Assembly (NCBI RefSeq): GCF_014852585.1
Contig: NZ_JACVBX010000001.1
Location: 248,001-312,000, forward strand
DNA from: Pseudomonas sp. PDM18
GTDB lineage: Bacteria > Pseudomonadota > Gammaproteobacteria > Pseudomonadales > Pseudomonadaceae
DNA: 64,000 nt
Reading direction: 5' to 3'
The first letter of the stretch is position 1; each line of letters opens with the position of its first letter. Position numbers and translations under genes: made by a program. The notes under the pieces are model-generated. The model ran no database searches, was not told the origin of the DNA, and worked only from the letters and a program-made list of their open reading frames with translations. Below are positions 20,290 through 21,603 of the stretch, piece by piece.

Positions 20290-21528
20290 ATGGACAGCCT
20301 TCGCCACCGCCCCACAGCCTTCCACGTTACCCACTGGAGTGACGACCCGTTCAGCCGTGGCGCCTACAGCACCCTGCTGCCCGGTGCCACGCCGGAGCAT
20401 CGGCGGCGTTTGGGTGAAGCGCTGGGTGACAGGCTGGTGCTGGCCGGCGAGGCCTGCAATCCCGACGCACCGGCCATGACCCACGGCGCCTGGAACGATG
20501 GCCTGCGCGCCGCCGAAATCGCCATCGAAAGCGGAGCCCGCCGAGTGCTGGTGATCGGTGCGGGCTTCGCCGGGATTTCCGCCACGCGACGTCTGCGGGA
20601 AGCCGGAATCGACTGCGTGGTGCTGGAAGCCCGCGAGCGAATCGGTGGCCGCGTCCACAGCATTTCCCTGGGGCCGGTACGGGTAGACGAAGGTGCCGCC
20701 TGGCTGCAGCACTTCGACGAAAATCCCCTGGCCGCCCACGCTCGGCAGCTCGGCCTGCCGCTGCAGGAAACCGATTTCGGGCAGCCCCTGGCTGCCACGG
20801 CGGATGGCCCGGTGCCCGACATCGATTCAGCCTGGGAAGCCCTGCGCGCGGGGATCGACCGCAGCCTGCCGCTGGCCGAAGGTGTCGCGCGCTATCTCGA
20901 AGATCGCGATGAAGAAACCCGCCGCGCCACCCGCTTCGCCCTGGACGCCAACCTGATCCTGGAAGCCTGCCTGCCGCTGGAGTCACTGTCGGTCGATGCC
21001 CTCGACGAAGAAGGCGTCGGCGCCGGCGACCGCTTCCTGCCGCAGGGTTATTCGCAGTTGGTCGCGCATCTCGCCGAGGGGCTGGATATCCGCCTGAACC
21101 AGCCGGTAACGGCCATCGACTGGTCCGGCGAGCAGGTGCGAGCGGGAGCCGAAAGCGCCGACTTCTGCATCTGCACCGTGCCCATCGGCGTGCTGCGCGA
21201 TATCCACTTCGACCCACCGCTGCCGGCCGCGCAGCAGGACGCGCTGGAGCACCTGGGCATGGGCCAGCTGGAAAAGGTCGTGCTGCAATTCGACGAGCGC
21301 TGGTGGCCGATGTCGCCGTCAGGTTACCTGCGCTGGTACGACACGCCGGCCAGCTTCGGCGAGTGGCTGGATCTCACCGACGCAGTGGGCACACCGACGG
21401 TTGCCGGGCTGATTGCGGCGGATGCATTGGAGCGGGTGTTTGCCGGACGCAGTGATGAGGAGATTGCCGTCGCGGCTTGCGGCGCTCTTCAGGCGTGGGC
21501 AGATGCAGTGCGGAGCGCGCAGTTGTAG
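20290..21528 (+). CDS. Circularly permuted flavin amine oxidase-like protein
   Basis: A 412-residue FAD-dependent oxidase homologue whose parts are in an unusual order. Residues 11-80 (WSDDPFSRGAYS, LVLAGEA, MTHGAWNDGLRAAEI) are the segment that ends ordinary monoamine oxidases. Residues 85-122 then give the dinucleotide-binding start of the family (VLVIGAGFAG...VLEARERIGGRV). The middle domain follows (PIGVLRDIHFDPPLP, KVVLQFDERWW), and the protein stops at ALQAWADAVRSAQL, just where the C-terminal block would normally come. All parts are present once, so activity is plausible. No signal peptide; substrate unknown. The TAG stop is the TAG of a family A repeat. Shine-Dalgarno weak. Confidence 0.85.
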   Translation: MDSLRHRPTAFHVTHWSDDPFSRGAYSTLLPGATPEHRRRLGEALGDRLVLAGEACNPDAPAMTHGAWNDGLRAAEIAIESGARRVLVIGAGFAGISATRRLREAGIDCVVLEARERIGGRVHSISLGPVRVDEGAAWLQHFDENPLAAHARQLGLPLQETDFGQPLAATADGPVPDIDSAWEALRAGIDRSLPLAEGVARYLEDRDEETRRATRFALDANLILEACLPLESLSVDALDEEGVGAGDRFLPQGYSQLVAHLAEGLDIRLNQPVTAIDWSGEQVRAGAESADFCICTVPIGVLRDIHFDPPLPAAQQDALEHLGMGQLEKVVLQFDERWWPMSPSGYLRWYDTPASFGEWLDLTDAVGTPTVAGLIAADALERVFAGRSDEEIAVAACGALQAWADAVRSAQL

Positions 21529-21603
21529 GAGCGAGCTTGCTCGCGAATCGAGTCAGCCGGCAGCGCTGATGCTGGGCGGTTCGCGAGCAAGCTCGCTCCT
21601 GCA
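21525..21603. repeat. REP-like palindrome pair, family A, supplying the stop codon of the upstream gene
   Basis: Starts GTAGGAGCGAGCTTGCTCGC and ends GAGCAAGCTCGCTCCTGC. The amine-oxidase stop codon (21526-21528) lies inside its first bases, so the repeat overlaps the coding end. Confidence 0.85.

Follow-up and report, generated by a model that had tools for sequence, protein, structure and literature searches.

The window, a stretch of 64,000 nucleotides from Pseudomonas sp. PDM18, carries a gene for a predicted flavin amine oxidase in which the segment that canonically closes the chain lies at its beginning (Table 1). In the translation, the W..DP motif at residue 16, the AGEA motif at residues 52-55 and the GAW..GLRAA motif that follows are all N-terminal to VLVIGAGFAG, and both the GxGxxG motif (86-95) and the AGE..GA..G.RA block (52-75) are found in the 412-residue protein. 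The core stops where the moved block would start in a canonical enzyme.

Table 1. Features of the oxidase locus in window coordinates. Alignment A1 comprises 37 permuted relatives.
Feature	Position	Strand	Remarks
Gene for the putative circularly permuted flavin amine oxidase	20290..21528	+	Open reading frame, ATG start, 412 aa
Moved block, residues 7-78 (W..DP, AGEA, THGAW..GLRAA)	20308..20523	+	Corresponds to the canonical C-terminal end; canonical profile 385-456 of 459, PF01593 371-441
Joint, residues 79-82, canonical last helix to canonical first strand	20524..20535	+	Gap between the two canonical-profile matches; helix 64-80 and strand 85-89 in the model
Core, residues 83-401 (Rossmann start, FAD domain, substrate domain)	20536..21492	+	Canonical profile 38-376
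Dinucleotide-binding motif VLVIGAGFAG, residues 86-95	20545..20574	+	From the translation; Gly 90, 92 and 95 invariant in A1
Met63	20476..20478	+	Thr in 25 of 28 canonical rows; Met throughout A1 (37 rows)
Lys329	21274..21276	+	Column taken to be that of the LSD/PAO flavin-site lysine; Lys in all 37 rows of A1
LysR regulator, AbrB-family (PF05145) protein			Upstream of the oxidase gene
TetR regulator, MFS transporter			Downstream of the oxidase gene

The first-pass annotation had placed a block of C-terminal type ahead of the dinucleotide-binding motif and had proposed that the two parts of the protein be aligned separately to the Pfam model PF01593. The whole protein scored 205.2 bits against this model (curated cut-off 19.8), with the best stretch of PF01593.30 covering residues 93-404 on profile positions 1-365, while residues 1-84, when searched alone, matched positions 371-441 of 443 with residues 7-77. 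With an E-value of 3.1e-12 for the latter match, the outcome that residues 1-80 do not resemble the C-terminal part of the model is excluded. A canonical-order profile of 459 positions, built from 15 canonical bacterial relatives, gave the same picture: residues 7-78 aligned to positions 385-456 and residues 83-401 to positions 38-376 with nothing doubled, which bears out the annotated block order and the suggestion that each part occurs once and that the ends match up. Canonical chains have the Rossmann part first and the W..DP/AGE block last, whereas residues 7-78 here precede residues 83-401. The sequence features of a circular permutant were all found, in that the parts are present once, their order is swapped, the old ends are joined and the new ends adjoin each other in the canonical sequence. 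Judged by its sequence, the protein belongs with the permuted homologues of the PF01593 family rather than with its canonical members. Tests of this kind recognised the canonical controls as canonical (26 of the loci listed, nine matches in the Chloroflexota and the controls of the canonical profile), and three other amine oxidases in the same genome matched the Pfam model without a break (1-443, 1-442 and 1-441).

Homologues were collected with the window protein (1458 proteins), with a permuted query of the actinobacterial type (499 proteins) and with a permuted query of the Tat type (1308 proteins), and the best 120 from each search were combined into a set of 296 proteins, the window's own included. 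HMMs for the moved block and the Rossmann part identified the permuted order in 293 of these, a count that measures consistency and not prevalence because the homologues were gathered with permuted queries. The remaining three (P0066, P0099 and P0237) are partial and without one or both blocks, and none of the 293 permuted proteins showed an extra block C-terminal to the Rossmann part. The canonical-profile test classified 288 of the 296 proteins as permuted and 8 as single-hit; the two matches overlapped by more than 15 profile positions in 7 of the 288, which we take as the block match extending into the leader.

The distribution of the rotated oxidase was estimated from genome samples, and the tallies are lower bounds since 4 to 12 candidates were scored per genome with strict thresholds. 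It was recovered from 15 of 25 genomes of the window's genus (the window's included), from 20 of 398 genomes and 3 of 19 genera in the family sample, from 3 of 398 genomes in the Pseudomonadota sample, all of the window's genus (A1 scan at 1e-70), and from 5 of 396 genomes in the Actinomycetota sample, including the centre genome that was picked for holding one. All matches in the genus, family and Actinomycetota samples were permuted. Likewise, all six matches in a second Pseudomonadota family (code f55; 6 of 149 genomes, including the query's own) had the rotated order, a type of which the A1 scan of the Pseudomonadota at 1e-70 gave none. Among the homologues, database labels include Pseudomonas nitroreducens, P. 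citronellolis, P. putida and P. veronii, the named loci include P. delhiensis and Actinoplanes lutulentus, and assemblies of Acidimicrobiales and Ilumatobacteraceae are among the homologues listed. The separate clade in the f55 family (L149, L183-L188) contains several members with a twin-arginine-like leader, and in the Actinomycetota the permuted amine oxidases form a large set (L099-L102, P0177-P0296). A rough, self-made pattern for a Tat-lipoprotein (twin-arginine) leader was identified ahead of the moved block in 68 of the 120 best proteins from the Tat-type query. A scan of the Chloroflexota with the Tat-type profile gave nine places in 8 of 151 genomes, all in canonical order, and plasmids gave no match to the oxidase at 1e-40.

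The position of the break is nearly uniform. Across the 288 proteins, the medians for the core end and the start of the moved block are 376 (5-95% range 372-380) and 383 (376-390) in canonical-profile numbering, and the fusion spans 456 to 37. In the 11 permuted loci listed, the core ends at 377-380. The block starts at 376-388 in these loci apart from L100 (357) and L186 (369), whose matches extend further upstream. The likely route would be a tandem duplication followed by trimming of the outer halves. No intermediate of this kind was found in the 25 fetched regions and the window, each of which contained the oxidase cluster once, as examined with a simple gene caller over five genes on each side (or fewer, for L174 and L181). 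The common breakpoint makes us lean towards one origin. An alternative hypothesis is that the rotation arose repeatedly, such that independent events at one tolerated hinge produced the type of Pseudomonas and the Acidimicrobiia, the type with Tat-lipoprotein-like leaders, the clade in the f55 family and lone rows such as L099 and L188. Three free trees, in which the two parts were aligned apart, do split the permuted rows among the canonical ones, into four places or with four changes, albeit with weak deep branches. However, to constrain the permuted rows into one group costs 5.24 log units in one set (32 versus 28 rows; p-AU 0.418) and 12.85 units in a second (24 versus 28 rows; p-AU 0.221), and a single origin is therefore neither rejected nor shown. 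The starred branches force just one change, the two large permuted groups join in one tree (SH-aLRT 90) and there is nearly one breakpoint throughout, all of which speak against repeated origins, and we consider this scenario rather unlikely. A broader proposal is equally tentative: in amine oxidases of the LSD/PAO type, several independent permutations would have occurred at one and the same hinge, in part linked to export behind a Tat-like leader. If true, nature would have repeatedly run the experiment of rotating the chain in a major flavoenzyme fold.

With regard to function, Lys329 occupies a column that we take to be that of the flavin-site lysine of the LSD/PAO enzymes, and it was retained in 24 of 24 permuted rows; the lysine expected of an amine oxidase is thus present in the sequence. 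In the column of Tyr761 in LSD1, by the residue and numbering that we assume for that enzyme, the window protein has Ala60 where LSD1 has a tyrosine, and the aromatic residue of an LSD1-type cage is absent from this column. The column is mixed in permuted and canonical rows alike. In the proposed reaction, an amine would be oxidised at the flavin with Lys329 nearby, yielding an imine and H2O2. It could be argued that the fold has been kept in another FAD oxidase or dehydrogenase that acts on a non-amine substrate, as the alanine in the Tyr761 column, methionine instead of threonine at position 63, the lack of any NCBIfam model scoring above its threshold within the best 25 of 87 and the lack of a conserved metabolic neighbour gene would allow. 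We find this reading improbable, given that the lysine is conserved and that the closest solved relatives by both sequence and fold are LSD, polyamine and monoamine oxidases. A separate observation concerns residues 293-295 (21166-21174), a Cys-Ile-Cys triplet (C293, I294, C295) that does not vary across the 37 rows of A1; the canonical rows of alignment A2 mostly have V-T or similar at these positions.

The fold predicted for the single chain was confident (pLDDT 93.8, pTM 0.92). The closest folds are those of LSD2/LSD1 and the polyamine oxidases, in a comparison that is bound by chain order and matches without residues 1-78. A search of the Protein Data Bank with the A1 profile placed residues 82-401 on positions 335-692 of the LSD2 chain and residues 4-77 on positions 699-772, and the two ends of the protein thus meet in LSD2 with few residues between them. 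Among the best 60 of 205 matched sequences there was no permuted chain, and the best stretch of each of these began no earlier than profile position 65, as canonical chains should. We hypothesize that a link of about four residues now connects the segment at the canonical chain end with the first Rossmann strand, and that new chain ends have been opened immediately ahead of the W..DP strand. The canonical ends would lie close together in the fold, as the first-pass annotation supposed. The chain would then fold as the usual two-domain enzyme, with the N-terminal block closing the FAD site in cis. The short joint might instead suggest a swapped dimer, in which the block completes the FAD site of the partner chain and not its own, but the single chain alone was modelled confidently, with high pLDDT across residues 10-80, and this arrangement seems very unlikely. 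An assembly error, a gene fusion or a decaying gene can be dismissed with near certainty, since 15 of the 25 genomes from the genus, as well as members of other phyla, have the same order, and dN/dS ratios of 0.126-0.288 against eight relatives indicate purifying selection. The first-pass view of a true permutation and not a broken gene is upheld by these ratios and by an order kept in many separately assembled genomes, and the homologues that it suggested looking for in other genera extend to other phyla. Taken together, the sequence comparisons and the model suggest, with a probability of roughly 0.9, that the protein is a natural, working circular permutant of an FAD amine oxidase of the LSD/polyamine oxidase type.

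The amine oxidase domains of LSD2/KDM1B and LSD1/KDM1A, the nearest solved sequences and folds, have all of the parts and the flavin-site lysine in common with the window protein, but differ from it by their canonical order (Rossmann part first, W..DP/AGE block last) and additional domains. Spermine oxidase, FMS1, maize PAO, MAO-A/B and the bacterial putrescine oxidases share PF01593 and the fold, whereas the order is canonical in the best 60 of 205 solved relatives and rotated in the window protein. The closest bacterial relatives in canonical order among the matches listed (L013-L017, L103-L105, L128 and L189-L197) are likewise unrotated, with about 30-35% identity for L013-L017, and some canonical bacterial relatives have a leader peptide ahead of the Rossmann part.

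Natural circular permutants exist in other folds, and like the protein described here they have every part once and shifted ends. Circular permutation as such is thus already known; what appears to be new, within the literature covered, is its occurrence in the flavin amine oxidases. Full-text searches, with preprints and most subscription papers outside their scope, yielded no account of a flavin amine oxidase with a permuted chain. The flavin amine oxidases, including MAO, LSD1 and the polyamine oxidases, have been studied extensively as drug targets and biocatalysts, and a natural permutant conserved in several lineages makes it possible to test directly which connections of the chain are required by the fold, with the rotation site marking a permitted break site for engineering. 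Caution is also needed in annotation, because database names such as “flavin monoamine oxidase family,” which are given to permuted homologues, hide the rotation.

The LysR-AbrB-oxidase gene order was found in 11 of 19 regions from the Pseudomonadaceae and the downstream TetR-MFS pair in 10 of the 19. The neighbouring genes differ in other lineages and no partner gene is therefore indicated; the enzyme probably works without one that is fixed. We also considered the possibility of assigning a function from the neighbours, but rejected it since they are not conserved beyond the Pseudomonadaceae. In four regions from this family (L164, L165, L166 and L176), a gene resembling a short-chain dehydrogenase is located one to two called genes upstream in the same direction, unlike in the window. 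Finally, an inverted pair of the repeat TAGGAGCGAGCTTGCTCGCGAA is located at 21526-21601, starting at the stop codon of the oxidase gene. The repeat has 13 matches in the window with at most three mismatches, several of them as inverted pairs, and these pairs presumably resemble the REP/REPIN elements of Pseudomonas.
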